From IMG/VR virus record IMGVR_UViG_3300017613_002894, positions 1 to 23,000 of that record: 23,000 nt of DNA; one strand, written 5' to 3'. A program made the translations under genes and the position numbers. Positions within the stretch are counted from its first letter, which is position 1. Each line of letters starts with the position of its first letter. Shown here piece after piece: positions 3,691 to 22,860 of this stretch. The stretch comes from a virus. The notes below the pieces were generated by a model. It saw nothing but the letters and a program-made list of their open reading frames with translations, did not search any database and was not told the origin of the DNA.

Positions 3691-4329
3691 ATGGCATACA
3701 CAGTTATAACCCCAATTGCTTTAATTCTTAAGGCTCTCGATGATGAGATCAAGGTTAGATATCCGGATATTACAACCAAATATGATCCATCGATGTCATA
3801 TGAGGAGACTGTAAAGGGTGTAAGATATGTGAGATCTTCGATGGCCCTCGATGAAGAGCAAACATTCCCCCTAATGGGATTTTCGAGAACATCTGTAATC
3901 GGGCAGGAGGATCTCCCACGCAGACAGATCCCGATGAGGCCGAGAGTAGCAGACTCAGAAGCTGATCAATATAAATCCCGACTCTGTCAATTTGACTTTT
4001 TGTTTAAGTTTTTCGAGAGGGATGTCGTCATGGCTGATACTTTTGAAGTTATGTATGGAGCCCATGCAGCGATTAATGATATCAAGACATTAACTGTAAC
4101 TTTACCAGACGTTGGGGATTTTGAATATCAGTGTATCTGGAAAGACCTCGACGAAATCGAATTCAATAAGGAAGATAATTTTTACATCTCGAGCGCTGGC
4201 TCCTGCACGATTCACGGCAAATTTATCGTGATGCGAGATACACCATATCCATTGATCGAAACGATCAATATGGTAATCAAAAACTGGGCTGGCACGGTAG
4301 ACTATGCAACTACGGTCATCACACCATAA
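3691..4329 (+). CDS. Putative tail terminator / tail completion protein
   Basis: This 212-residue protein has alternating helix and strand. It begins with an I-A-L-I-L-K-A-L-D-D-E-I helix and a Y-P-D-I-T-T-K-Y-D-P-S turn. Residues 60-85 hold F-P-L-M-G-F-S-R-T. A beta core follows with F-D-F-L-F-K-F-F-E-R-D and then W-K-D-L-D-E-I-E. The F-x-Y-I-S-S-A-G-S-C-T-I-H-G-K-F-I strand pair near 163-180 closes it. Ring-forming terminator proteins cap the tube and sheath and sit just before the sheath gene in many myophages, as this one does. GGAGG at 3673-3677 provides its ribosome site. The identification rests on position and general fold character; a sheath-stabilising neck protein (T4 gp3/gp15 type) is an equal alternative. 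Confidence 0.5.
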   Translation: MAYTVITPIALILKALDDEIKVRYPDITTKYDPSMSYEETVKGVRYVRSSMALDEEQTFPLMGFSRTSVIGQEDLPRRQIPMRPRVADSEADQYKSRLCQFDFLFKFFERDVVMADTFEVMYGAHAAINDIKTLTVTLPDVGDFEYQCIWKDLDEIEFNKEDNFYISSAGSCTIHGKFIVMRDTPYPLIETINMVIKNWAGTVDYATTVITP

Positions 4330-4391
4330 TCTACCTTTGTGATAACAATATAATCTTTACCTTACGTGTAAAAGAGGTAATACAGACATTT

Positions 4392-4399
4392 TATAAATC
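4392..4399 (+). promoter_or_regulatory. Possible late-type promoter element TATAAATC
   Basis: TATAAATC at 4392-4399 matches seven of eight bases of the T4 late promoter TATAAATA and lies about 30 bases before the small gene at 4431, in the 100-base gap ahead of the sheath gene. This would make sense for strong late expression of sheath and tube. A match this short occurs by chance in AT-rich DNA, and it is not known whether this phage has a T4-type late sigma factor. Confidence 0.25.
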
Positions 4400-4430
4400 T
4401 AATACATCAAGATAACTAAAGGAGTGCCTC

Positions 4431-4604
4431 ATGGCTAAAGATAAGAAAATGATTGGATCCCTGGTTTCACGGTTAGACCACCCTGTATACCTTTCCTATT
4501 TTGGGGAAGGCCTTGTGGTACCACCAAGGGGCGTCATGAAAAAGATAAAAAAGGTAGGCTTAGGTGCTATCCCACGGGGAGTCATTTTTGTCCCAAATAA
4601 ATAA
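4431..4604 (+). CDS. Small conserved-looking protein upstream of sheath, 57 aa
   Basis: A 57-codon gene with a strong AAAGGAG ribosome site at 4418-4424, six bases before the ATG. The product is basic and compact. It has S-R-L-D-H-P-V-Y-L-S-Y near residues 13-23, G-L-V-V-P-P-R-G near 27-34, and ends with L-G-A-I-P-R-G-V-I-F-V-P. This layout (a strand, a Pro-Gly turn, a Lys-rich linker and a final L-G-x-x-P-x-G-V-x-x-V strand) resembles a class of very small proteins I recall next to tail genes of large myophages. Their function is unknown to me. The gene fills the space between the terminator-like gene and the sheath and was probably kept for a role in tail assembly. Confidence 0.75.
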   Translation: MAKDKKMIGSLVSRLDHPVYLSYFGEGLVVPPRGVMKKIKKVGLGAIPRGVIFVPNK

Positions 4605-4628
4605 TTTCACTTCAATGGAGGAAACATC

Positions 4629-7196
4629 ATGGCAGTAGTAGGTGGACATCCACAAGTTACAATTCGGGAGATTGATTTATCCGTTCGAGTTCCCGGTTTT
4701 CCAGGAGTATACGGAGCCATCGTCATTCCTGCCAAGCGAGGCCCAATTGACGAACCTCAGCTGGTAACGAGTGAAGCGCAGTTGCTTCGATATTTTACGC
4801 CGAACGAAAAAGTCGAGATCGGATATGATCTTGCATACTTTTCTGCAATCGCATTCTTGCAGAAAGCCAACAAGCTTTGGGTGAAGAGAGCCATCGGGGA
4901 TAACTATCTCCATAGTGGCGCTGTCCTCAAGGAAATGACAGCAGGTGGGGATGACAACGAGACCCTGGTAACGGGTGAAGAGGATCCTTCTGCTTACTCA
5001 TTTGACGCCGATGAAGGTGTTCTGATTCACGCTGCCGACCCTGGAGAATGGGGCGACGATTTCGGTTTCCGTTTATGGTTACAGCGCGACCGCGAGGACA
5101 TTGTTCTCGGTGATGTTGCTGGAAATCTTGATTACGGCCCACCAATCGCAGCTACCGGAACAATCACAGCTGGTGGTGCAACTGTTGCAATCACCGCAGA
5201 AGCTGGTTATGAAGGTAATGTGACCATCACTTTCGCCGACGATGTATCTGAAGCTGGAACCCTGGCCATCACATCCATCGAGATCATCCTTGACGATACT
5301 GGATTTGCCGGTGGTGAGTACATCCTGATCAGCTCCCCATACGAAGATTTCTACGTCTGGACCCAAAACGACGGTGCCGGCGCTGATCCTACACCTGCTG
5401 GCGCAACCAGCTTGGGATCCTTCGATATCGTGGGAGTACAGACTGTCGCCCAGATCGCCGACGGTATTGCAGCCCTGATCGATGCCAACGCTGCTTTCGA
5501 TTGCCCGGCGACTGCAACCGGAACAATCCTGGCCACAGCCGCAAGAACTGGAGTTGCTTTATCCGCACCAGACGGAGCGACCGGTATGCCAACCCAGGCC
5601 ACAGTATTTGAGGCAACCCCAGGTGTCGATTCTGGTGTAACCGCAACTTACGACGCGGAAGCATTGACAATCGAAGTAACCCTGGAAGACCTCCAGACCA
5701 ATGCCGAAGATGTCCAGACCGCGATGGAAGCAATCGCAGTTATCGATACCTTCGATCTCGACACACTGCTTGACAGTGATGCATGGGATGCTGCATGGGG
5801 TGGAGCTACTCTGTCCGGTGGAACAAGCGGAGCGAACACAATCACAGTGGCACAGCACTTTGCCCCTGGCGAGCCAATCCGATTCTCAAAATCCGCAGCG
5901 GGAACCGACACTCTCCCTGATGGAATCGTTGAGAATACAACATATTACACCATCGAAGTCGACGCCACAACAATCAAACTGGCACCGACCCAGGCCGACG
6001 CAATTGCTGAGACCTCTGAAATCGACATCATAGATGCCGGTGACGGAACGATGGTCATGATCCCTCTGGTAGACGTAAAAGAGCCAGGCGGAATTCAGAT
6101 AGAAGTTTATCACTCATCCAACGAGAATGAGCCACTGGAACAATGGATCGTTTCATTAACTCCAGGCGCCAAGAACGGTCTCGGGAATAACATGTACATC
6201 GAAGATATGTTGGAAGGTTCCAACTACATCAGAGCCATCCACAATGCTCTGATCTCCGGTGGCCCAAGACCTCAGGTAACAGTTCTGTATCTCGGCGGAG
6301 GAGCCGACGGTGACGCAGTGACAGATGGAAAAATGATGCTTGCTGCCGATGCTTATAATGATCCAGCAGGTTTCCCGACAACGGTCCTAATGGACGGTGG
6401 TTGGGCTACACCAGCGTACCAGATTTATCTGGACAGCATCGCTCAGAATCGTCATGACTGTGTGGCTCTCCTGTCAGTGCCTTATGATAAGGAAGCTTCA
6501 GCCAACTACATCAATGAGATCGTCGATTACCGCAAGACAATCTTGAATCTTGCCAGTTCTTTCTCAGCGATGTACACCCCTCACGTAAAGATTTACGATA
6601 AGTTCAACGATCGTTATCTCTACGTTTCACCGGACGGATATGCGGGAGCCGCAATTTCCTTCACCGCATACAACTACGAAATGTGGTATCCAGTCGGTGG
6701 TTTCAAACGCGGTAACTTGAGCGTGCTTGATACTCGTCGCAGATTCACCAAGGGTGAGCTCGACTTCTTGTATGAAAACGATCTCAATCCGAATAGATTT
6801 TACCCCGGACGCGGAATCAACATTTGGGGACAAAAGACCCTTTATGGATTACCATCTGCTCTGGATCGCTTGAATGTCAGATTGCTCCTGGTGGTCTTGG
6901 AACCGGCCATCGCTTCAGCTCTCGAAACCTTCTTGTTTGACTTGAACGACGAGGCAACCCGTAAGCTGGCCAAGGCGATGATCGATGACTACATGGAAGG
7001 TGTTAAAGGGCGCCGCGGTGTGTACGAGTTCTATACACAGTGTGACGAGGATAACAACACGACAAATGACATTGACAACCACATCATGAATGTCCACCTC
7101 TTCATCAAACCGACTCTGTCAGTGGAGTACATCCCATTCACAGTAGTTATCATGAGAACTGGACTTTCTCTGCAGCTCGCTCAAGAAGCAGTTTAA
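4629..7196 (+). CDS. Tail sheath protein with large inserted domains
   Basis: The contractile tail sheath subunit, 855 residues. Residues 1-160 carry the usual sheath start (P-G-V-Y-G near 26-30, then a long F-A-T-type beta/alpha region ending in D-P-G-E-W-G-D-D). From about 481 onward the conserved sheath body resumes (Y-I-E-D-M-L-E-G-S-N-Y-I), and the C-terminus (G-R-R-G-V-Y-E-F, then I-K-P-T-L-S-V-E-Y-I-P-F) is the typical sheath end that joins neighbouring subunits. T4 gp18 is 659 residues. The extra length is an insertion at about 160-480 with Thr/Gly/Ala-rich beta segments of types common in phage surface proteins, probably exposed on the outside of the tail. GGAGG at 4617-4621 precedes the start. 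The gene is visibly richer in G and C than its neighbours, especially in the insertion. Confidence 0.95.
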   Translation: MAVVGGHPQVTIREIDLSVRVPGFPGVYGAIVIPAKRGPIDEPQLVTSEAQLLRYFTPNEKVEIGYDLAYFSAIAFLQKANKLWVKRAIGDNYLHSGAVLKEMTAGGDDNETLVTGEEDPSAYSFDADEGVLIHAADPGEWGDDFGFRLWLQRDREDIVLGDVAGNLDYGPPIAATGTITAGGATVAITAEAGYEGNVTITFADDVSEAGTLAITSIEIILDDTGFAGGEYILISSPYEDFYVWTQNDGAGADPTPAGATSLGSFDIVGVQTVAQIADGIAALIDANAAFDCPATATGTILATAARTGVALSAPDGATGMPTQATVFEATPGVDSGVTATYDAEALTIEVTLEDLQTNAEDVQTAMEAIAVIDTFDLDTLLDSDAWDAAWGGATLSGGTSGANTITVAQHFAPGEPIRFSKSAAGTDTLPDGIVENTTYYTIEVDATTIKLAPTQADAIAETSEIDIIDAGDGTMVMIPLVDVKEPGGIQIEVYHSSNENEPLEQWIVSLTPGAKNGLGNNMYIEDMLEGSNYIRAIHNALISGGPRPQVTVLYLGGGADGDAVTDGKMMLAADAYNDPAGFPTTVLMDGGWATPAYQIYLDSIAQNRHDCVALLSVPYDKEASANYINEIVDYRKTILNLASSFSAMYTPHVKIYDKFNDRYLYVSPDGYAGAAISFTAYNYEMWYPVGGFKRGNLSVLDTRRRFTKGELDFLYENDLNPNRFYPGRGINIWGQKTLYGLPSALDRLNVRLLLVVLEPAIASALETFLFDLNDEATRKLAKAMIDDYMEGVKGRRGVYEFYTQCDEDNNTTNDIDNHIMNVHLFIKPTLSVEYIPFTVVIMRTGLSLQLAQEAV

Positions 7197-7212: not shown

Positions 7213-7740
7213 ATGCCAAGACCAACGATTGAAGAAATCCGTGGAGTAGGTGACTTCGCGACACTGTATCAGTGGAGCCTAAACTTTGTCACTTTCCCAT
7301 CAAGAGTGGGTGAGGGTGGATCCTACCCAACATTAGAGGAAGCCAACCTCCGATGTGAATCAGCTGACCTTCCGAAGGCTACAAACCAGAAGATCACTGC
7401 TGAGATTCGAGGACATAAGGTCCACTCCTCAGGTATTGAGGAATACTCTGGCTCCATCGCCCTGACATTTATCGAGACAATCGATAACAAGATTTCCCTC
7501 TTTCTGAAAGCATGGCGCGAAGCTTGCTGGCAGGTCAGAACGGGTATCCAGGGTACGAAGCAAGAGACAGAGTGTCAGATCGCCATCGAGCGTATGAATC
7601 GTAACAACGATCCGATTTGGACATACAATCTTTTTGGATGCTTCCTGGAAGATTACGAAGTCGGAACTTTGGACGGTGCAACATCTGACTTTTTCAAACC
7701 CGCAATGACGGTATCATTTGATTACTTTGAAGAAGGCTAA
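7213..7740 (+). CDS. Tail tube protein (T4 gp19-like)
   Basis: The main tail tube subunit, 175 residues, close to T4 gp19 (163). It begins with R-G-V-G-D-F-A-T-L-Y-Q-W, the N-terminal strand region typical of gp19-like tubes. C-E-S-A-D-L-P-K-A in the middle, then I-A-L-T-F-I-E-T-I-D-N-K, matches the tube pattern in which a T-F-x-E-x-x-D-x-x strand is followed by a W-R-E helix. The protein stacks as hexamer rings inside the sheath and conducts DNA. It directly follows the sheath gene with AAGGAGG at 7195-7201 overlapping the sheath stop, the usual sheath-tube pair. Confidence 0.9.
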   Translation: MPRPTIEEIRGVGDFATLYQWSLNFVTFPSRVGEGGSYPTLEEANLRCESADLPKATNQKITAEIRGHKVHSSGIEEYSGSIALTFIETIDNKISLFLKAWREACWQVRTGIQGTKQETECQIAIERMNRNNDPIWTYNLFGCFLEDYEVGTLDGATSDFFKPAMTVSFDYFEEG

Positions 7741-7745
7741 TATGA

Positions 7746-8222
7746 ATGGCCTGGCTCCGAAGCATCACAGAATTAAGGGAAGTTGGAGATCTCGCAAGGT
7801 CATACTTGTGGGATATCCAATTTCCTTCATCACCTTTGCCCAATTGGTTTCCAGCTTCAACAGTTGATGAACCAATTGCAGCAGTGCAGTCGTACGATTT
7901 CGAATACCATATTTTACAGTTTTCAGTACCTAAGTCACTTCAAAAACATACCTTAAGCGTTACATTTTACGACACTATCGATCACAAATTGGTCGATTGG
8001 CTCACCGACTGGGTTGAAGAAATGTTCCCGGATAAGCAGGGAGTAGCCCCTCTTGAATCAATCGCTAAAGAATGCCGCATTGTACGTCTCAATTTAGACA
8101 AGACCGAAGGTAAGCTCACGGTCTATCGAGTCTATCCCGATGAATCCATGGTAAATAATTGGACGTCCAACTCGGAACACAAATTAATAACGGCCTCTTT
8201 CGTTGTGGTCGGGGAGGCCTAA
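7746..8222 (+). CDS. Second tail tube-like protein
   Basis: A 158-residue relative of the preceding tube protein. It shares the opening E-L-R-E-V-G-D-L-A-R-S-Y-L-W and the L-S-V-T-F-Y-D-T-I-D-H-K strand that correspond to the R-G-V-G-D-F and T-F-I-E-T-I-D-N-K segments of its neighbour. The first ATG after the previous stop (7742) is in another frame and gives only a shadow; ATG 7746 opens the real gene, five bases after the tube gene. In contractile systems a second tube-like protein often forms a special ring at the end of the tube, for example at the baseplate (gp54-type) or the initiator layers of injection systems. Which end it occupies here cannot be told from sequence. Confidence 0.82.
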   Translation: MAWLRSITELREVGDLARSYLWDIQFPSSPLPNWFPASTVDEPIAAVQSYDFEYHILQFSVPKSLQKHTLSVTFYDTIDHKLVDWLTDWVEEMFPDKQGVAPLESIAKECRIVRLNLDKTEGKLTVYRVYPDESMVNNWTSNSEHKLITASFVVVGEA

Positions 8223-8242: not shown

Positions 8243-9043
8243 ATGGCAGAAAAATCAAAGAAAAAGGCGAAATTTGTAACCCACGAACAAAAGTCAAAAC
8301 GAGACAATCCAGCACCAGATACTGATCCCAAGGAGTTTATACCATCCCTTTCAGTAGACGTTCTCCCATCCAAGTGGTTGTCTTATCCTCCTAACAGTTC
8401 GATATCTTATAAACCTTATGTTTTCGGGGAGATTAAGAAATTTAATCAATCCAAACTTCGAGGTAAGCCACGATTAGACTTTATTATGTCCGGCATCGAG
8501 TCATCCTTTCCGAAGGAGGAACTCACTTTAGCGGATATGCTATACATCGGTCTAATGCGAAAGATTTCTACTCTCGGAGACGCAAAGACTCAAATTACTT
8601 TTCTCTGCGAACACTGCGGGATGAGTAATTCTTTTATTTTATTAAACTCGGAAATGGCTTTCGACGACATCGAGGCTGAAAAACTTCCTGTAGTCGTCAC
8701 CTTATCGGACGGAGATTATCAATTTAGCCCATTAACAGTACAGGGTTATTCGGATCTCATGGAAGATGATTTGCAGAATGATATAGTTCACACTCTTGCA
8801 AAAGAATGCATCAACCGACCGTATGAGAATGCATATAAGAGATTCTATGCAGCCAATACCGAGGATGGAACCCTTTTAGACGAAATCGATGAATTGCTCT
8901 ATCATGGAGTAACTCCCATGGATAGAAAGTGTGATCACTGTGAAGGCCTCACACAGGTAGAGGTGGAGGGAGGCGAGATTTTGATCTCTCCGTTTCGTGA
9001 CGATTCAGAGCCTACTCCAAACAGAATTCGCTTTGGCGTATAA
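8243..9043 (+). CDS. T4 gp26/gp51-like baseplate assembly chaperone
   Basis: The 266-residue product resembles the T4 base plate chaperone family. Residues 1-35 are basic and low complexity. A central domain has L-P-S-K-W-L-S-Y-P and F-G-E-I-K-K-F-N-Q near 41-70. Two CxxC pairs, C122-x2-C125 and C230-x2-C233, flank about 105 residues and probably form one zinc site. Such proteins occupy the place between tube and tape measure where tail assembly chaperones are found in most tailed phages. GGAG at 8230-8233 serves ATG 8243. The gene is followed by a short open frame in +1 (8985-9143) that may be joined by frameshifting, giving a product of about 299 residues. Confidence 0.75.
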   Translation: MAEKSKKKAKFVTHEQKSKRDNPAPDTDPKEFIPSLSVDVLPSKWLSYPPNSSISYKPYVFGEIKKFNQSKLRGKPRLDFIMSGIESSFPKEELTLADMLYIGLMRKISTLGDAKTQITFLCEHCGMSNSFILLNSEMAFDDIEAEKLPVVVTLSDGDYQFSPLTVQGYSDLMEDDLQNDIVHTLAKECINRPYENAYKRFYAANTEDGTLLDEIDELLYHGVTPMDRKCDHCEGLTQVEVEGGEILISPFRDDSEPTPNRIRFGV

Positions 9044-9143
9044 GTTGCATATTAGCCCGGTCGATTTGGATCGAATGGACTACGCGGAAGTGAAATTTTT
9101 AAACACCAGACTCTCTAAGATGATGCAGGAGATCAATAGATAA
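8985..9143 (+). CDS. Short +1-frame ORF, possible frameshift extension of the chaperone
   Basis: An open frame of 52 codons runs between stops at 8982-8984 and 9141-9143, in the +1 (or -2) frame relative to the preceding gene, and fills the gap up to the tape-measure start at 9144. The encoded peptide reads as a regular helix-type protein (F-A-L-A-Y-K-L-H-I-S-P-V-D-L-D-R-M, then Y-A-E-V-K-F-L-N-T-R-L). It has no ribosome site or good start of its own; the only ATG early enough (9075) leaves 22 residues. The overlap with the zero frame is 8985-9043. There, TTT C at 8993-8996 would let tRNA-Phe re-pair perfectly after a +1 slip. Chaperone frameshifting is well known in tailed phages, mostly -1, with -2 in Mu and +1 in some. 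Confidence 0.55.
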   Translation, partial: SLRFVTIQSLLQTEFALAYKLHISPVDLDRMDYAEVKFLNTRLSKMMQEINR

Positions 9144-13632: not shown

Positions 13633-14598
13633 ATGTCATTATTCCAACTTGCAGAGCATGTACAGATTACTAATAATCTGAAATTCCCTCATAAGGGTCG
13701 AGTAGTTAAGACTGACAAAGATGAGGACAAGAAACTCGGTCGCATTAAATGTGTCGTGAAAGGCATGTTCGAGGATGAGGCCGAGGATAAGAAGCGCCTC
13801 CCCTGGGTATTTCCTCAGAACCCCTACGGGCTCGGTGGATCTGCAACTACGTCGGGGTTTTCGGTTCCGGAACTCGACTCCGAGGTAACTGTAATATTCC
13901 CATTCGAAGATATATATCATCCTTATTATACTGGCTACTGGCAATCGGAACTAACTCATCAGCACTCTTTATTTGATGAAGATTATCCTCACTCTTATGG
14001 GTGGATAGATTCAGTCATCCATTGGCTCAAGGTCAATAAGCGACTCGGGGACGCAGACGAGCAATCCTACATCGAGTTCTTTCGTAATTACCTCGGGGAT
14101 CTCCTACGCTTAGATGAAGAAGGTAACCTCTGGATCAACATTCCTAAATCTGTGTACATTAAAGTCGGTGAGGATATTCGAACCGAGACAATTCGCGACC
14201 AGATACACAAGATCACCGGGGATCACATTGTGAAAATAGAGAAGGGTGATTTCCTGGAAGTTACCGAGAATCAGACTAAATTGATCGGCGGGAACATGAC
14301 CTCCCGCGTTACTGGAGCTCAGGAATGGCTCATAGGCACAACCCACGGAATCATAGCCGGGAGCGCGATATCCCATCAAGCGCCGCAAATTGACCATAAC
14401 TCAGGTATCATTTTCGGGAAAGCTGAATCAGATGGAGCGGATCACGATGCTGAATTGACGGATGAGCTTGCAGAACTTCAAGCTAAGATGGACGAGATGC
14501 AAGCCAAGATAGACGAGCTGACCGCTATGGCGGATGAAATCAAATCTAAGGCAGACGAGAATAGACCCGATGTAGCCCTGCCCGACAATATAGAGTAG
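13633..14598 (+). CDS. Baseplate spike protein (gp5/gpV-like, OB-fold, no lysozyme)
   Basis: The 321-residue product has an OB-fold near 15-105 (H-K-G-R-V-V-K-T...L-G-R-I-K-C-V-V-K, then L-P-W-V-F-P and F-S-V-P-E-L-D-S-E-V-T-V-I-F-P-F). Repetitive beta strands of the spike shaft follow near 155-260 (G-D-H-I-V-K-I-E-K-G-D-F-L-E-V-T). The shaft ends with Q-A-P-Q-I-D-H-N-S-G, the class-typical A-P-x-I-D/H-x-N. No lysozyme domain is present, unlike T4 gp5. After the usual end, residues 275-310 form a Met/Ala/Glu/Lys coiled coil. The protein would sit at the centre of the baseplate and pierce the host envelope. It lies one base after the hub gene and eight bases before the first propeller gene. 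Confidence 0.82.
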   Translation: MSLFQLAEHVQITNNLKFPHKGRVVKTDKDEDKKLGRIKCVVKGMFEDEAEDKKRLPWVFPQNPYGLGGSATTSGFSVPELDSEVTVIFPFEDIYHPYYTGYWQSELTHQHSLFDEDYPHSYGWIDSVIHWLKVNKRLGDADEQSYIEFFRNYLGDLLRLDEEGNLWINIPKSVYIKVGEDIRTETIRDQIHKITGDHIVKIEKGDFLEVTENQTKLIGGNMTSRVTGAQEWLIGTTHGIIAGSAISHQAPQIDHNSGIIFGKAESDGADHDAELTDELAELQAKMDEMQAKIDELTAMADEIKSKADENRPDVALPDNIE

Positions 14599-14606
14599 GT
14601 AACTTT

Positions 14607-16673
14607 ATGGCGTTAGAACACTGCCCACATATATCCTTTGCATACTGGAATACTGAAGAAGAGGAAGTCGATCTAATAGTCGAACGCATAGATACAGGAG
14701 GCATTCATCATGTTGGAGTTCGACCAGATGGAACTGTAATTTGCGCTGGCTCCAGTAATTATGGTCAATGTGACACTCTTGATTGGACAGGAATCACCGA
14801 CGTTAAAGCGGCGGGTTCGACTACATATGGTTTGAAGGCCGACGGTACCGTGGTAGCGGTGGGGAACAGTGGATCTGGTCAGCTAAATGTCGGCTCCTGG
14901 ACGGGTATAACTCAAGTTGCACCTGGGGGAGTTCACGTTGTTGGTTTGAAACCTGATGGGACCCTTGAATTTGTAGGCTCAAACGATGATAATCAGTTAA
15001 ATGGGTTAGGCGGCTGGATAAATAAAGTTTTTCTCGCCGCGGGATATTACCATACAATCGGAGTAAACGCTGATGGGACCCTTGAAACCGCAGGAACTAA
15101 TTATAACGGTGTCTTAAGTGTCGGTGCCTGGACGGATATAAAAGAAGTTGATACTTTATACTATCACACTATAGGGTTAAAGAATGATGGAACCTGTGTG
15201 GGAGCCGGTTCCAATCCTGATGGTCGGACCGACGTAGGAACTTGGACGGATATCACTAAAGTTGTAGTTGGTCAGAAACATTCTGTAGGATTAAAGAGTG
15301 ATGGCACTGTAGTTGCTACTGGCGATAATAGTGAGGGACAATGTGATGTTGGAACCTGGACGGATGTAGTAGCAATTTCTGCTGGTGGCTATAACACCGC
15401 TGCGATAACATCTGATGGAACCTGTTTAGCAGTTGGGGATAATACGTATGGTTTGAATAACATTACTCCGGATAGGACTTGGGTCAACGTCACTCAAATA
15501 CATGCATCCAATCGTTGGACAACCGGGAGAAAATCTAATGGAACTGTAGTAATTACAAGTGTTTATACTGATGTCACTTGGACTGACATTGATATGGTAA
15601 AAGCGGGATTAAATCATATCATTGCTCTTGAGGATGATGGGACCGTAACAGGCATAGGATCTAATGCCGATGGACAGTTGGATATCGTCGGTATGATAGA
15701 CATGATTGATATCGACGCCAACCAGTCGAACTCAGTAGGAGTTAAGTCGGATGGTACCGCTATTGCTGTTGGGGATAATCCGCATGGTCAGAACTGGGTT
15801 TCAGCGTGGGATGATATTAGATATATTAGATCCTCAGGGCGACACACCGTTGGTTTAAAGAATGACGGTACAGTAGTGGCGGTGGGTAGAAATGATGAAG
15901 GCCAACTCAATGTAGCAACTTGGACTGACATCATTGAAATTGCTGCCTCTTGGGAACATACTGTAGGTCTGAAATCTGATGGGACCATAGTAACCGCTGG
16001 ATCAGATTCTAATGGCGCAGATGCTTGGACCGGCGTTTCTCAGATTGCTGCAGGATCTACTGTCATAGCTGCAATCAAACCGGACGGTACCGCCCTGAGT
16101 AATAATATACTTTATGATGTTTCAGGTTGGAGTGACTTAATAGCAATTGCGGCTGGAGACGATTGGATCGTAGGTCTTAGGGATGACAATACTTGTATCG
16201 CTGTTGGGGATAATAGTCATGGTCAATCAAATATCGGCCCATGGGTTTTATATATTGATATTGATCCCCTCGAATATGTACTCCACCAAGTAGAATGCAT
16301 CGAAAGTTATTGCCGTTTATGGAATACAGTAGACCAAGAGTGCTCCATAAAAGTTGGAGAACAAATTCAAAAGCATATACATAACGAACATAACCATCAA
16401 CTCGAGCACGCCTGTGAGGACGGTTATGCCACTGATTGTGGTTTGCCAGCCGGCTCAGGGTTGTCTGGAGTAGTGCCAAAAGCAAATGCCCTTGTAGCTG
16501 AATTTGTAGGAAATGAAGATTTAGACGATAACGGGTTGGTTTACGGGAAGGACTTTAAGATTGATCCAACTGATTCAGATATGCCTCCAATGCTCGAACC
16601 CGTTGATACTCACCCAGGCAATACTGCCACAGTCACAATGACCTGGCAGGAATATCTTGATTCTTTAATATAA
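14607..16673 (+). CDS. RCC1/BLIP-II-like double propeller protein A, putative tail adhesin
   Basis: The 688-residue product starts with a short tag (C6-P-H-I-S). Fourteen repeats of about 37-39 residues follow (33-560) with consensus V-G-L-K-x-D-G-T-V-V-A-x-G-x-N-x-x-G-Q-L, then W-T-D-I-x-x-I-A-A-G. RCC1 and BLIP-II propellers have seven blades, so 14 repeats fit two propellers in one chain. BLIP-II blades have similar short length. Next is a Cys/His module (C564, C569, C579, H590, H592, H595, H597, H601, C603), then C611, a helix and an EF-hand-like loop (D638, D640, N642, G643, V645, D649). The end is T-V-T-M-T-W-x-x-Y-L. It follows the spike gene and heads a set of three relatives. Such propellers bind proteins or sugars; a baseplate-peripheral or fibre role is inferred. 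Confidence 0.85.
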   Translation: MALEHCPHISFAYWNTEEEEVDLIVERIDTGGIHHVGVRPDGTVICAGSSNYGQCDTLDWTGITDVKAAGSTTYGLKADGTVVAVGNSGSGQLNVGSWTGITQVAPGGVHVVGLKPDGTLEFVGSNDDNQLNGLGGWINKVFLAAGYYHTIGVNADGTLETAGTNYNGVLSVGAWTDIKEVDTLYYHTIGLKNDGTCVGAGSNPDGRTDVGTWTDITKVVVGQKHSVGLKSDGTVVATGDNSEGQCDVGTWTDVVAISAGGYNTAAITSDGTCLAVGDNTYGLNNITPDRTWVNVTQIHASNRWTTGRKSNGTVVITSVYTDVTWTDIDMVKAGLNHIIALEDDGTVTGIGSNADGQLDIVGMIDMIDIDANQSNSVGVKSDGTAIAVGDNPHGQNWVSAWDDIRYIRSSGRHTVGLKNDGTVVAVGRNDEGQLNVATWTDIIEIAASWEHTVGLKSDGTIVTAGSDSNGADAWTGVSQIAAGSTVIAAIKPDGTALSNNILYDVSGWSDLIAIAAGDDWIVGLRDDNTCIAVGDNSHGQSNIGPWVLYIDIDPLEYVLHQVECIESYCRLWNTVDQECSIKVGEQIQKHIHNEHNHQLEHACEDGYATDCGLPAGSGLSGVVPKANALVAEFVGNEDLDDNGLVYGKDFKIDPTDSDMPPMLEPVDTHPGNTATVTMTWQEYLDSLI
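14703..16280 (+). repeat. 14-blade RCC1-type repeat array in protein A
   Basis: Fourteen consecutive in-frame coding repeats of about 110-120 bases, each centred on GATGGNAC (Asp-Gly-Thr) and a TGGAC (Trp-Thr) segment. Short exact copies such as GATGGGACCCTTGAA occur at both 14954 and 15074, which suggests some repeats were copied recently. Confidence 0.75.
16296..16673 (+). other. Shared C-terminal Cys/His plus EF-hand-like module (protein A copy)
   Basis: This stretch encodes the 125-residue C-terminal module shared with protein B (split, 17564-17690 and 18569-18796) and protein C (22486-22857). All three copies obey C-x4-C-R-L-W-x6-C-x10-H-x-H-x2-H-x-H-x3-H-x-C. The distal half has C-G, a helix, D-x-D-x-[DN]-G-x-[VI]-x-x-x-[DT], then I-D-P-T-D and P-x-M-L before the T/W-rich end. 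Such exact spacing suggests metal coordination. Which metal, and whether the module also holds subunits together, cannot be told from sequence. Confidence 0.7.
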
Positions 16674-16675
16674 TT

Positions 16676-18799
16676 ATGACTACTATACCAGCATGCCCAT
16701 TCATAACATTTAAGCATATTCCCACTACAACTCCATTTACCACTCCCATGGTGGATGTCGGAGATGCCTCGTCCTTCGGGTTAGTAAATGATGGCACAGT
16801 TGTAGCCACAGGCTACAATGGTTATGGTCAAATTGATGTGGACGCTTGGTCTAACATCATTCAAATATCAAGTGGCCACTATACCACTGTTGGAGTATTA
16901 CTGGACGGTACCTGCGTCTCAACAGGATGGAATTCTGTTGGACAAGCAAATGTTACTGGCTGGACGGATGTCAAAATGGTTGCAACTTGGACCGTAGCTA
17001 CTATAGCTCTTCATAATGATGGAACTTTATCTGCTGTTGGTCAAAATTCATGGGGCTCTTTAAATATTGGAGGATGGACGGGCATCGATCAAATCGTTGG
17101 CGCTTCTTCTCATTCCATTGGATTGAAGGCTGATGGAACCTTAATGTGGACTGGGTATAATGATAAGGGCCAATTAGATCTCGGTTTATGGACTGATATT
17201 ACTCAAGTTGCTACCTCGTCTAATCATACCATAGGGTTAAAAACAGATGGAACTGCCATAGCAACGGGTTGGAATATTATGGGCCAGCTTGATGTCGGAC
17301 TCTGGACAGATCTCATTCAGGTTGAAGCTGCAGATGGATACTCTTTAGGGGTAAAGAGTGATGGAACTGTATACACGGCTGGCTCCGCGCCAGTTGGAGT
17401 GTCCTCGTGGACGGATATAGTCATGGTAGCAGGCCATGAGCATGAAGCAATTGGATATAAATCGGATGGCTCCGTTGTAGGCGCCGGACTAAACAATGAA
17501 GGTCAAATCAATGTCACTGCTTGGGATTTGATACCGGGAGGGGAACAGATCGTATATATCCCCTGCATGATAGATGATTGTCGACTCTGGGACAACCCAA
17601 AGGAAGAGTGCGTTTACGTAGTCAGGAATCAAGAAAAGAAACACGATCACAGAAATCATGAGCACCAATTTGTACACGAGTGTGGGGATCAATACGGGTA
17701 TCCACATCAGAATAGACGACAAATCCATTCCATAGATGATGGAGTTGCTGGCGATGCCTTTATAGTTACTGATATGGATTTTGCTGCGAGTGTGATTGGA
17801 ACTTATAATTTGTCAGAGGTTCTCACTCAGATTGCCACGTGGGAAAATGTAATTCAGGTCGCAATCGGAGAGAATGGAGCTTGCGGGGTTGACACTTCAA
17901 AGGATTTATTATGGGCACCAAAAACGGCATACACAACTAACACTTCAGATTTTGATGAATTGTTGAGGGTTATTCCTTGTGTAGATGGGCTGTTGGGATT
18001 AAAAGCGGATGGGACTTTAGTTTATTCTGGAGTTGGCGCGGTAAATGAATTATTTACCTATGATACATGGGATCAAATCCGCGAAATTGCAGCAGGAGCC
18101 TTACATATAGTTGCCCTGGACCAATGGGGGAATGTCCAAGCGGAAGGGCTTAACACTAACGGTCAATTAAATGTGTCAGAGTGGACAGATGTCAGAGATA
18201 TTTACGCCCACGGAAATGTTACCCTGGCAACCACCTATAACGATATGGTTCTTGCTACAGGGCTGGATAATTCCGGCTCCGTAACGACACCTCCAACATG
18301 GACGAATATAAAAGCTCTATATGTACACACGGATTATACTGTAGGAATACATAACGATGGGACTGTCTCATTCGCTGGCGACGGTGGATTATATAATATA
18401 GATCAAGTTACCTCAGAAACGGGTGTCGATGAAATTATTGGAATAGATGACACTTTGGTTATTTGGTTTACGGATGGATCTATTAAAGTCATAGGAGACC
18501 CTCAATTCTCAGACACTCTATTTGAGAATGTCGTAGCTCCAGAACTTCCCTGGACAACCGATGAAACCTGCGGATTAGACGCAGGTGTCACAGGTTTGAA
18601 TATTCCAATTGCATCTGTCCTCCTGGCCGAGTTTATGGGTAATGAGGATTTAGATGATGATGGCGAGATATACGGCAAGACTTTTAAAATAGATCCTACC
18701 GACGACAACCGACCTCTCATGCTCAAAGAAATTGAAGACCATCCAAAATTAACAGCTACGGTCACCATGACGTGGGCTGATTATCTCGCATCACTATAG
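16676..18799 (+). CDS. RCC1/BLIP-II-like double propeller protein B, modules interleaved
   Basis: This 707-residue relative of protein A begins with C7-P-F-I-T and seven clear RCC1/BLIP-II-type blades (about 31-290). The Cys/His module follows with the same spacing as in A (C297, C302, R303-L-W305, C312, H323, H325, H328, H330, H334, C336). Then comes a second, divergent set of about seven blades (358-625), and only afterwards the terminal module: C632-G-L, a helix and an EF-hand-like loop (D658, D660, D662, I665). The last position of the loop is T669 instead of an acidic residue, so calcium binding may be weaker. The end is T-V-T-M-T-W-A-D-Y-L. Unlike A and C, the second propeller lies between the two C-terminal modules. 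It begins two bases after gene A. Confidence 0.85.
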   Translation: MTTIPACPFITFKHIPTTTPFTTPMVDVGDASSFGLVNDGTVVATGYNGYGQIDVDAWSNIIQISSGHYTTVGVLLDGTCVSTGWNSVGQANVTGWTDVKMVATWTVATIALHNDGTLSAVGQNSWGSLNIGGWTGIDQIVGASSHSIGLKADGTLMWTGYNDKGQLDLGLWTDITQVATSSNHTIGLKTDGTAIATGWNIMGQLDVGLWTDLIQVEAADGYSLGVKSDGTVYTAGSAPVGVSSWTDIVMVAGHEHEAIGYKSDGSVVGAGLNNEGQINVTAWDLIPGGEQIVYIPCMIDDCRLWDNPKEECVYVVRNQEKKHDHRNHEHQFVHECGDQYGYPHQNRRQIHSIDDGVAGDAFIVTDMDFAASVIGTYNLSEVLTQIATWENVIQVAIGENGACGVDTSKDLLWAPKTAYTTNTSDFDELLRVIPCVDGLLGLKADGTLVYSGVGAVNELFTYDTWDQIREIAAGALHIVALDQWGNVQAEGLNTNGQLNVSEWTDVRDIYAHGNVTLATTYNDMVLATGLDNSGSVTTPPTWTNIKALYVHTDYTVGIHNDGTVSFAGDGGLYNIDQVTSETGVDEIIGIDDTLVIWFTDGSIKVIGDPQFSDTLFENVVAPELPWTTDETCGLDAGVTGLNIPIASVLLAEFMGNEDLDDDGEIYGKTFKIDPTDDNRPLMLKEIEDHPKLTATVTMTWADYLASL
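16766..17545 (+). repeat. First propeller repeats of protein B (7 blades)
   Basis: Seven in-frame repeats with the Asp-Gly-Thr and Trp-Thr-Asp landmarks. They are closer to the blades of protein A than to the second, degenerate set in the same gene (about 17747-18550), where Asp-Gly-Thr is kept in only some blades. Confidence 0.7.
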
Positions 18800-18807
18800 G
18801 ATAAAAT

Positions 18808-21800
18808 ATGGGTGAATGGATATCAATATTTGGTCCAGATAATTGGGAAGCTCATGGGGCCTCAAACTTTCCTACATGGGATGGTTCGGGGTATCTTGTT
18901 TCCAATTTTGTAGTATACGAGATGCAACTTAAAGGTTCTTTACACGTAGGTCAGAGATTCGATAAAATTAGAGTTACCTATGTCGGTACTACAAATCTCG
19001 TTTACCTCCGAATTGAAAACATTGGTGATACTCGATTTGCAAGTCTAACCAATCAACCCTCTGGGGGCGATCAAGGATTTATGAATTCCTTGTCTTCTTT
19101 AGGGGATATGCATCATATATCGTTTTGGCCCAGTGGAAGCGGGACTATAACGAATATAGAATTTTGGATCGATGATAATTCTGAAGTCATAGCCCACGTA
19201 GATCAGACTGAAATAGCACCCTGGCCCGAAAACGGAACCTTTCGTATAAAATATAGGAGTTTGTTCGCTCCGTACGAGGGATATGTGAGAATTAGAATCC
19301 CAGCCTTCATCGGAGGCGGTCTCTCATGGGATATAGCTAATATGTGGTTCGGTCAAGCTCATTCCAATACTATGACTGAATTTGATTTTAAGACAGGGGC
19401 TTTCGAACAAATTTACTGGAATAATGGGGATATCAGTGTTCAGATTGATCAGGATAGAAACGAGTATCTATACTCGGATCCAATTTGGCTCGAACTTGAT
19501 CCCGATGATGCAATAATTTTCTCATACTACTCTATAAATCTTGTCGATCAGTGGAGATATCTTACGGATGGTGGAGTTTACGTAAATACCTCTTGGAGAG
19601 GAGGGGGCGACCATGCCAACGATCAATGGTGGACAGAATGGGGTCCAGGTAAATGTTTTGGGATCTCCTTAGTTCATGAGAATGGATTTTCAGGAAACCT
19701 TGATATATCCCCTTGCCCATCGGAAGTTACAGATCCATTTTATGTTGCAGATAATCATAGGACTTATCCCGGTCAATCATACACAATACGTACGGCATTT
19801 GACCCCTCTCAAATCAGACATTCAGTCGGAAATTTAAGAATTGGATTCAAAGGATATCAAAGTAGTCCTATTGAGATTCTTGAGGCATGGTGTGGTCAAT
19901 GCTTGGATTCCACCGATCCAGTCTTTGTAGGAGAACCTGAACAATTATTTTTTGATGGCTCCGTCTCTGCCACTAAGTTTGGAACCGATGGAATCTTATG
20001 GTCAGACTTAATTGATTTCAATATACGGAATTATCAATGGTCCTGGGATCTTGGATTCGTAGTTTCTTTTTATACGAATTTAACTATGGATTATCCCATA
20101 ATTAAGGATCCAAGGTACCGTCCTGGAATTTGGAGCTCATATGCAAAGAATCACAATAACGCAGGCCTAACAGGACCCTGGGTGTGGGGGACCGCCTATG
20201 AGGGAGCGAGACTTGGAGTGGTTTCAATTTGCTCCAATTGGTGTTACGGTGGAGAAGGCGGACTTCCTCCGGACCCGGGGTATATTCCAGATTGCTATGA
20301 CGTTGAAGCTTGTGAACTTGCTGGAGGATACTGGTATTGCGGTGCCTGTCATGAGGAACCCCAAGAAATAACAGATACTGGGACAACAGTAAATATTGGA
20401 GATAAGGATGATAATCTCAACCCCCCACTTGTTTTGGGCTGCCCCTTTATTTCAGGGAACATTGATAAATTTGAGGATGAGGGTACAGGGGGAGACACTT
20501 ATCAAGACGAACCATGGTCCGGCCGCGGTAAGGTAGTTTGTACTGATGATATCACTTCATTATTGGATCAAAAGGGCAATGTCATGTGGGCCGGCGATTT
20601 AGGTTGGCAAACAGGTAGCCCTCGTCGATGGCAACCTTTCGGTCAGCGGTCTGAGATGATAGTTTCAATAAAGGGTAACAAGGCAAACTTTGGGTATCTA
20701 ACCCGAGGTGGTGCTGTAATATGTTATGGAACTTCAACTGGTTCAGATGACGCCGCCAAATGGATTGCTCCAGAACCCGGAAGATTCGTGAGACATTTTG
20801 AATGCGGGAAGAGTCATACAGTAGTCTTATACACCGATGGGTCAGTTAAAGCCCAGGGATGGAACCAAAACAATTGTGTTTCTACCCCTCGGACGTGGAC
20901 GGATATTCAATATATCTGGGCTGGAAATGGATTTACCGCAGGAGTGGATTCCACGGGTCAAATGTACTATGCTGGCACCCCAAGTTACTCCCTTCAAACG
21001 GATATTCTGGCTTTATCAGGTCTTGGGATCGTTGGAGGCAAAGCGGGGTCAGATAATATAGTCCTAATTGGCCCTAACGGTAAAGTATTCTTTAGGGGAG
21101 CTAACAAGAGTAGCTCAACATATGAAGGAATAAATAATCATTACAATATCATAAATGTAGGTATTGGGGATACAAATGTATACCTGATTGATGAAGCTGG
21201 CAATGTATTTGGGTATGGGTCTGACTCGGATAATCAATTATCTGATATGGTATCTAACAATTGGACGAATGCTCGAGAAATTGACTGCGATGATAATGGT
21301 GCCTTTCTTTTACGAAGGGATGGTACCTTAAGTTTTTTGGGTGATTCCGGACCAATGGGCGCTTTAACGAGGCGAAATGATTTATCTCGATACACCGCCT
21401 ACGCAATGAATTCATATGCTGGAGTTCTCCACTCCCATGCAGCGGGAGACTTCTTTTCATATGACCCAGCCGGAGATATACAGGTTGCGGGTAAGACTGC
21501 AGCAACATCATACGACTTTGCAGAGTGGGCTGGCGAGGACATCTTCAGAGTATATAGTTATGTTCAAGCTGCTCATGAGGCTTGGCTTGGATTGACACGA
21601 GATGGTAAAATGATTCCGGCAGGCCCCGACAAATTAACTGCATTCTCTGGCTTGTTAGGTACAATGGATCAAGTGGATCAGATTATAGCTGGACCATATC
21701 ATATAGTTTACAAAAAGGCCGATGGTACAAATGGCGGTTTTTTGTCCCCCACATCTCCGGGGTTTACGTACAACCATCTTCAACATTCATATTTCTGGGA

Positions 21801-22860
21801 CTACACTCTTCAGTTGTCCCCAGGTTGGCTTTACACCATTGGTATTTGGAGAGAAACTGGAGCTCTGAATCAGGTCGGCCGAATTGGAGCTGATAATAAC
21901 GGTCTCCAGGATCATTTCGGGAATCTCGGGGAGATCTCAGGTCTTTTTAATCCATGGGACGAATTTGCATTTGTCCCGTTCCAGTGGGATTACTGGGGTG
22001 AAGGTCCATCCTCGGTAAACAGGCAAGGTATTATAGTTAGTGGGTATGACAAGGACTCCACGTACTTTTGGGGCTATCAAACTGGATTCATGAAGCTCCC
22101 GGTTGGTGGACCAAATTTTAAGATAGAACAAACGATGTGTGAAACTGATAACCTTTATATCATAGAGCCTGATGGGACAGGGCATGGAGAACCAGGAAAC
22201 CAATGGTATGGAGGAGTAGGGAACGATGGTAACCATCCGACCTCCCCAGGAGATTTGACAGCGGCCCGAACTGGGATAGTAGATATTAGAGGAAAGAATG
22301 CAAACCTGGCAACCCTAATTTATGAGGACGGATGGATCGAGAGAATCAATAGATACTATTCTGACCATACTCGAATTGACTCCTTTACACTTCAACCGTT
22401 CGAGGCCCCAGATTTGACCTCCCTAAGGGATCGGACTTGCAGCGTTGCTGGTATCCATACATACATCAACTTCTCTTTCCATCCATGCATCGAGAATAAA
22501 TGCCGTTTATGGGACGTGAAACAACAGGAATGCTCCATCAAGGTTCGAATGGATGAGATAAAGCATGTTCATCATCAACACTTACATCCTAAGGATCATA
22601 CATGCGCAGAGGGATTCCAAGTTGATTGCGGTGGAATAACTCAGGAAAATGTTAGCGGCGTTTTAAAAGCAGCTATTTTAGTTGCCGAGGCAGCAGGGAA
22701 CGCCGATCTTGACAATAACGGCCTAATTTACTGCAAAGACTTCATCATAGACCCCACTGATCCAGACATACCACCGATGTTGGTGGTCGAGCAAGAGAAA
22801 TCCACCTGCTTATCTGTAACCACCACTATGCTATGGGCTGACTATTTAGCCAGCTTTTAA
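18808..22860 (+). CDS. Large RCC1-like propeller adhesin C with duplicated N-terminal beta domain
   Basis: The 1350-residue product has three parts. Residues 1-540 hold two related beta domains: M-W-F-G-Q near 179 and A-W-C-G-Q near 360 are each followed by a D/V-F...Q-I-Y/L-F-F-x-G segment and a strand ending S-D-P/L-I. A Cys-rich segment follows (C475, C479, C496, C502, C511, C514). At 545 the tag C-P-F-I-S, which begins proteins A and B, appears internally and starts about 14 degenerate RCC1-type blades (to about 1215). The C-terminus repeats the Cys/His module with identical spacing (C1227, C1232, C1242, H1253, H1255, H1258, H1260, H1264, C1266) and the EF-hand-like loop (D1300, D1302, N1304, I1307, D1311). 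AGGA at 18797-18800 precedes ATG. It looks like the main adhesin of the set, inferred from size and surface-type domains. Confidence 0.82.
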   Translation: MGEWISIFGPDNWEAHGASNFPTWDGSGYLVSNFVVYEMQLKGSLHVGQRFDKIRVTYVGTTNLVYLRIENIGDTRFASLTNQPSGGDQGFMNSLSSLGDMHHISFWPSGSGTITNIEFWIDDNSEVIAHVDQTEIAPWPENGTFRIKYRSLFAPYEGYVRIRIPAFIGGGLSWDIANMWFGQAHSNTMTEFDFKTGAFEQIYWNNGDISVQIDQDRNEYLYSDPIWLELDPDDAIIFSYYSINLVDQWRYLTDGGVYVNTSWRGGGDHANDQWWTEWGPGKCFGISLVHENGFSGNLDISPCPSEVTDPFYVADNHRTYPGQSYTIRTAFDPSQIRHSVGNLRIGFKGYQSSPIEILEAWCGQCLDSTDPVFVGEPEQLFFDGSVSATKFGTDGILWSDLIDFNIRNYQWSWDLGFVVSFYTNLTMDYPIIKDPRYRPGIWSSYAKNHNNAGLTGPWVWGTAYEGARLGVVSICSNWCYGGEGGLPPDPGYIPDCYDVEACELAGGYWYCGACHEEPQEITDTGTTVNIGDKDDNLNPPLVLGCPFISGNIDKFEDEGTGGDTYQDEPWSGRGKVVCTDDITSLLDQKGNVMWAGDLGWQTGSPRRWQPFGQRSEMIVSIKGNKANFGYLTRGGAVICYGTSTGSDDAAKWIAPEPGRFVRHFECGKSHTVVLYTDGSVKAQGWNQNNCVSTPRTWTDIQYIWAGNGFTAGVDSTGQMYYAGTPSYSLQTDILALSGLGIVGGKAGSDNIVLIGPNGKVFFRGANKSSSTYEGINNHYNIINVGIGDTNVYLIDEAGNVFGYGSDSDNQLSDMVSNNWTNAREIDCDDNGAFLLRRDGTLSFLGDSGPMGALTRRNDLSRYTAYAMNSYAGVLHSHAAGDFFSYDPAGDIQVAGKTAATSYDFAEWAGEDIFRVYSYVQAAHEAWLGLTRDGKMIPAGPDKLTAFSGLLGTMDQVDQIIAGPYHIVYKKADGTNGGFLSPTSPGFTYNHLQHSYFWDYTLQLSPGWLYTIGIWRETGALNQVGRIGADNNGLQDHFGNLGEISGLFNPWDEFAFVPFQWDYWGEGPSSVNRQGIIVSGYDKDSTYFWGYQTGFMKLPVGGPNFKIEQTMCETDNLYIIEPDGTGHGEPGNQWYGGVGNDGNHPTSPGDLTAARTGIVDIRGKNANLATLIYEDGWIERINRYYSDHTRIDSFTLQPFEAPDLTSLRDRTCSVAGIHTYINFSFHPCIENKCRLWDVKQQECSIKVRMDEIKHVHHQHLHPKDHTCAEGFQVDCGGITQENVSGVLKAAILVAEAAGNADLDNNGLIYCKDFIIDPTDPDIPPMLVVEQEKSTCLSVTTTMLWADYLASF
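20530..22450 (+). repeat. Degenerate RCC1-type repeats of protein C (about 14 blades)
   Basis: Repeats are recognised by the spacing of hydrophobic-Gly-x-D-G/x-G turns and by scattered full matches (for example Y-T-D-G-S-V-K-A-Q-G-W-N with R-T-W-T-D-I near residues 676-700). Blade borders are uncertain because several blades have long insertions, so the count of 14 is approximate. Confidence 0.55.

Follow-up and report, generated by a model that had tools for sequence, protein, structure and literature searches.

An overlapping reading frame at the end of a tail assembly chaperone gene

How is an open reading frame translated that fills the gap between a tail assembly chaperone gene and the presumed tape measure gene and has no evident start of its own? 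This question is raised by a 23,000-nucleotide stretch of viral DNA (positions 1 to 23,000 of IMG/VR virus record IMGVR_UViG_3300017613_002894), referred to here at its full length as the window. We found a contractile-tail module in this DNA (Table 1). The chaperone matched Pfam PF12322 (T4_baseplate; E = 2.1e-6, 28 bits, curated cut-off 24.5) and PHROG 150 (baseplate hub; E = 3.9e-7), and T4_baseplate was also matched by five of ten relatives (E up to 0.01).

Table 1. Positions of the tail genes and recoding features in the window
Feature	Position	Strand	Remarks
Sheath	4629-7196
gp19-like tube	7213-7740
Second small, weakly tube-like protein	7746-8222		Between tail tube and chaperone
Chaperone gene, 0 frame, short form, 266 aa	8243..9043	+	T4 gp26/gp51 family (Pfam T4_baseplate); homologues in 28 lineages
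Shine-Dalgarno-like GGAGGGAGG	8965..8973	+	About 19 nt 5' of UUU
+1-frame open region	8985..9143	+	Stop TAA 9141-9143
Putative slip site CCG_UUU_CGU	8990..8998	+	P-site UUU_C 8993-8996, A-site CGU 8996-8998
Predicted transframe long form, 299 aa	8243..9143	+	Translated with shift
Presumed tape measure protein, 788 aa	9144..11510	+	Expected chaperone partner; by position and helical composition
Baseplate genes, gp53-like and gp5-like	After presumed tape measure

The +1 frame overlaps the chaperone frame by 59 nt and becomes open just four codons 5' of the slip site, where TTTC stands in the context CCG TTT CGT GAC. The part translated after the slip would comprise 48 codons (8997-9140), and its TAA stop directly abuts the ATG of the presumed tape measure gene. 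A preliminary description had placed the two frames at these positions, had put the fused product at about 299 residues and had held that the +1 frame lacks a ribosome site and a good start. On re-examination, the coordinates and the +1 relation of the frames held, fusion at TTTC gave exactly 299 residues, and the sole early start candidate was a GTG at 8997 with no normally spaced Shine-Dalgarno (SD) sequence.

The protein encoded directly downstream is presumed to be the tape measure by its position and helical composition, and it matched no tape-measure family in Pfam and PHROG searches. The order tube, chaperone, extension and presumed tape measure was found in the window and in its relatives, where the gene after the extension is annotated as tail protein, lytic transglycosylase, glycoside hydrolase or endolysin. 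Several relatives also carry a gene of similar size at the place of the second small, weakly tube-like gene. Behind the baseplate genes, the window contains three consecutive large ORFs with RCC1-type repeats (14607-16673, 16676-18799 and 18808-22860), the first of which matched Pfam RCC1_2 (E = 2.7e-63); their products are perhaps propeller-type tail or adhesion proteins.

The slip site is conserved among divergent lineages

A tblastn search of annotated phages returned 27 records with 23-33% identity to the window chaperone, and nearly all matches extended to its last or last-but-one residue. Twelve of these regions, from phages of Rhizobium, Vibrio, Escherichia, Acinetobacter, Pseudomonas and Thermus, were inspected. 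In all twelve, the end of the chaperone gene was overlapped by an ORF in the +1 frame, and 11 of them had TTTCGT at the same place. In the phage records examined, the extensions were unannotated or entered as separate 'hypothetical proteins'. Further loci were obtained from IMG/VR scans, and another copy from a Pseudoalteromonas genome contig. A viral contig scan with the window protein alone gave no matches, and an alignment of ten members proved too divergent as a scan query. After removal of near-duplicates, 28 lineages were retained (median pairwise identity 33%), which come from isolates and metagenomes independent of each other, and the +1 overlap layout was kept in every one. Neither the slip site nor the +1 domain was seen in one distant relative, L020.

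The Pseudoalteromonas copy (L041) lies in a bacterial assembly, contig00015 of Pseudoalteromonas peptidolytica DSM 14001, with the same chaperone and slip site. Its slip-region sequence was identical to that of IMG/VR locus L023, and the copy represents a prophage or a co-sequenced phage.

UUU_C was present in 28/28 lineages, preceded by CCN in 27 (CCC in 18) and followed by CGT or CGC in 25, so that the usual form of the site is CCN_UUU_CGY. The A-site exceptions were UUU_CCA (L035), UUU_CAU (L038) and UUU_CCC (L006). In a codon-by-codon comparison through the overlap, TTTC was the only tetranucleotide common to all lineages. Calculated from each locus's own codon usage, the probability was about 10^-9 for TTT throughout the 28 lineages, 3e-13 for CGT at 23/25 and 1e-11 for CCC at 18/28, and a Phe-Arg pair was written TTTCGT in 23/25 cases at the slip site versus 6/54 at other places in these loci (Fisher P = 2e-12); these values overstate the significance, as the lineages were assumed to be independent. 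The conservation of CGT could be due in part to the Val codon GTN in the +1 frame, whereas the choice of UUU over UUC cannot be explained in this way, as the +1 frame is unread before the slip.

The +1 segment is under coding constraint

An HMM of the +1 segments, built with the window left out, found window positions 8985-9140 at E = 1.3e-18, while the next best of 854 six-frame segments reached E = 1.4. In the +1-only DNA past the chaperone stop, four closer pairs showed 0/0/1, 4/1/17, 2/0/4 and 8/5/23 changes per +1 codon position, with substitutions falling mainly at third positions. Within the overlap, both frames were conserved, the +1 frame slightly more. Judged from these comparisons, it is close to certain that a coding extension in the +1 frame is reached from the conserved CCN_UUU_CGY site.

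The +1 domain had no convincing family match in Pfam or PHROG. In the AlphaFold2 model of the predicted transframe protein (mean pLDDT 85.9, pTM 0.77), three helices make up the +1 part (residues 254-267, 272-276 and 280-298). A Foldseek search with this model matched predicted viral proteins, several of them named T4-like baseplate hub assembly proteins, in agreement with the Pfam T4_baseplate assignment. No PDB chain was matched by sequence and none convincingly by fold (best Z 3.8 over 40 residues), which does not show a new fold.

The GTG at 8997 of the window, the small ORFs with their own starts that depositors annotated in some relatives, and the ATG of the corresponding domain in cyanophage S-SCSM1 could be taken as signs of a separate small gene, initiated at this GTG or, past the stop codon of the chaperone, through coupling or reinitiation. 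However, no start was conserved among the lineages: the candidates varied, mostly without an SD sequence at normal spacing, and L012 and L034 had no start codon at all. The GTG itself is not kept as a start, since the Val after the slip is encoded by GTG, GTA, GTC or GTT, or is replaced by another residue. A separate gene would also leave the invariant UUU_C unexplained, and we consider it very unlikely. Translation by frameshifting, as proposed in the preliminary description, is supported: the slip site to which it had pointed proved conserved in the related phages, the segment was present in the same relative frame in all lineages, and none of the observations that it had named as speaking against a frameshift was found among those examined.

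Direction and mechanism of the shift

The gp26/gp51-type tail assembly chaperone gene very probably contains a programmed +1 ribosomal frameshift. The direction is likely +1 and is deduced from tRNA re-pairing: for tRNA-Phe (anticodon GAA), UUC is a better match than UUU, so that re-pairing at UUU_C is cognate in the +1 direction only, which favours +1 over -2. Where CCC precedes UUU, tRNA-Pro can also re-pair, with CCU. A -2 shift would land in the same frame and produce the same transframe protein, and phage Mu provides a precedent, with a -2 shift in its tail genes. The SD-like patch also lies further 5' than in prfB, and a spacing of this length would exert a pull and not a push. After a -2 shift, however, tRNA-Phe would face CCU with two mismatches, while +1 offers UUC, its better codon, and the conserved CGN A site fits the class of influenza PA-X, whose peptide proved +1; we therefore regard -2 as quite improbable. 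A sequencing error or decayed gene, with the chaperone really in one continuous frame, could arise from one indel in a single genome but is refuted by the relatives, in which lineages this divergent, isolates and metagenomes alike, share the layout at the same codon with both frames conserved in the overlap.

We assessed possible stimulators of the +1 shift. No downstream stimulatory RNA structure was seen at the slip-site loci, and CGU is not rare in the E. coli codon table; both findings speak against the shift, as does the departure of three lineages from CGY at the A site. The anti-SD duplex energy peaked 14-20 nt 5' of the slip in many lineages, above the rest of the gene. Comparison of the patch with synonymous recoding gave a Fisher P of 0.003, for lineages that are not independent, and the patch is explained mostly, perhaps not wholly, by the amino acids. 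A prfB-type push by this patch was rejected, as a spacing of 14-20 nt is too long. Further in-frame copies of the TTTCGT (UUU_CGU) hexamer, at 14080 and 19240 of the window, likewise count against the shift and suggest that it is probably inefficient, as a G/GT ratio requires.

In the proposed mechanism, most ribosomes would pass CCG_UUU_CGU and stop 15 codons past UUU, producing the short form. In the remaining cases, tRNA-Phe would move from UUU to UUC and reading would go on as ...S-P-F-V-T-I-Q..., giving a long form that carries a further helical domain at its C-terminus. If lambda gpG/gpGT is taken as the model, the tape measure would be coated by many copies of the short form and few of the long, and the extra domain would link it to the tail tube or hub. 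Low efficiency and this G/GT-type division of labour are, like the +1 direction, inferred.

Relation to T4, cyanophages and Lak phages

In phage T4, the family is represented by two paralogues, gp26 (208 aa) and gp51 (249 aa), and no slip site was found in genes 26 and 51. We compared the profile of the fused family with both proteins. The alignment with gp26 stopped at the slip, in column 247 (the Phe of the slip site occupies column 243), while that with gp51 ran on to the end (hhalign 85%, E = 5.8e-6). In these computational comparisons, the predicted short form is collinear with gp26 and the predicted long form with gp51. An HMM of the +1 domain compared directly with single gp51 sequences was negative, the homology of this domain to gp51 being visible only in the full-length profile comparison or via the cyanophage form.

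Cyanophages carry one gp26 gene. In all 80 IMG/VR contigs (L054-L133), which are rather closely related (63-79% to the query), this gene ended in NNT_TTT_TTC_NNN_stop, containing the heptamer U_UUU_UUC, with a continuation in the -1 frame. The -1-frame domain matched the gp51 C-terminus (96%, E = 1.6e-9). Vibrio phage Bakedbeans and S-CAM8 showed the same -1 arrangement. S-SCSM1 encodes the domain in a different frame, where it has an ATG of its own and carries the annotation hub assembly catalyst. Cyanophage-type gp26 ends were also examined at L045 and L047. The end of cyanophage gp26 probably contains a -1 frameshift site, seemingly undescribed, as no published description was found in the open-access literature. 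The fused profile of the window family aligned with the cyanophage long form over the whole length (96.6%, E = 6.7e-10). Because the +1 segment alone aligned weakly with the cyanophage domain (18%, E = 0.0014), it is collinearity that supports the homology of the last domain.

In Prevotella Lak phages (L042, L043 and L044), a nucleotide-conserved dual-coding overlap was observed around 4180-4690, where the gene of a distant relative of the chaperone ends. Its +1-frame domain was found by the +1 profile in Lak-B5 (E = 1.4e-4, TAG=Q), and the overlap contains UUU_CAA.

Discussion

According to a review, the lambda G/GT chaperone gene lies directly 5' of the tape measure gene, and a shift near its 3' end yields a short and a long product. 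The window chaperone gene resembles this system in adjoining the presumed tape measure gene, with a predicted shift near its 3' end and two predicted products. It is located between the tail tube gene and the inferred tape measure gene, is followed by an extension ORF in another frame and has a conserved slip site inside the overlap. In contrast, the shift is -1 in lambda and probably +1 at UUU_CGY here, and the chaperone is of T4 type and looks unrelated to that of lambda. That the extension follows the G/GT logic of tail assembly is a well-supported hypothesis.

For influenza PA-X, mass spectrometry has proven a +1 shift of the UUU_CGN class, and sites of this class have been proposed in further viruses of eukaryotes, among them chronic bee paralysis virus, fijiviruses and amalgaviruses. 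The phage site shares with this class the UUU_C P site, the CGN A site, the preceding CC (UCC_UUU_CGU in PA-X) and the lack of an evident stimulatory structure. The known members operate on eukaryotic ribosomes in RNA viruses, whereas our site belongs to a structural-assembly gene of a bacterial virus and has CCN in place of UCC.

The preliminary description had called +1 or -2 shifts rare and not described for gp26/gp51-type proteins. The latter part stands, and none was found for such proteins; more broadly, phage structural genes with +1 shifts are known, such as the capsid and tail genes of Listeria phage PSA and the SPP1 tail tube gene (gp17.1*, CCC_UAA), and one has been predicted in a tail gene of the myovirus HSTV-2. 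All three share with our site the +1 direction and the structural module, but in PSA and SPP1 it is a proline codon on which the ribosome slips, within a coat or tube gene. In the open-access literature, we found no prior report of a UUU_CGN +1 shift in phage structural genes or in a gp26/gp51-type chaperone, of UUU_CGY +1 frameshifting in bacteria, of G/GT-type recoding in gp26/gp51 chaperones, or of the two T4 genes serving instead of recoding.

One review describes the G/GT shift as conserved in long-tailed phages except T4, and a second one describes gp51 as essential with unknown function. T4 gp26 and gp51 belong to the same family as the window chaperone, one ending at the slip column and the other matching the long form to its end, and differ in being two separate genes without a slip site. 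Cyanophage gp26 shares the family, the position and the gp51-like extra domain, and differs in its -1 heptamer directly before the last codon. T4 may therefore encode as two genes what its relatives make by recoding. On balance, we think it probable that gp26-like short and gp51-like long chaperone forms are general in the T4 superfamily and arise in three ways, by +1 shifting at UUU_CGY (window family), by -1 shifting at U_UUU_UUC (cyanophages and Bakedbeans) and from two genes (T4 and Straboviridae); T4 would then be no exception to the G/GT rule, gp51 being its GT, and UUU_CGN +1 shifting would also work in bacterial ribosomes. If this is true, a class of +1 sites that has until now been proposed for eukaryotes would extend to bacteria, laboratory E. 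coli would offer a simple system for how UUU_CGU drives forward slippage, and gene finders would gain a forward-shift motif that is now missing from them.
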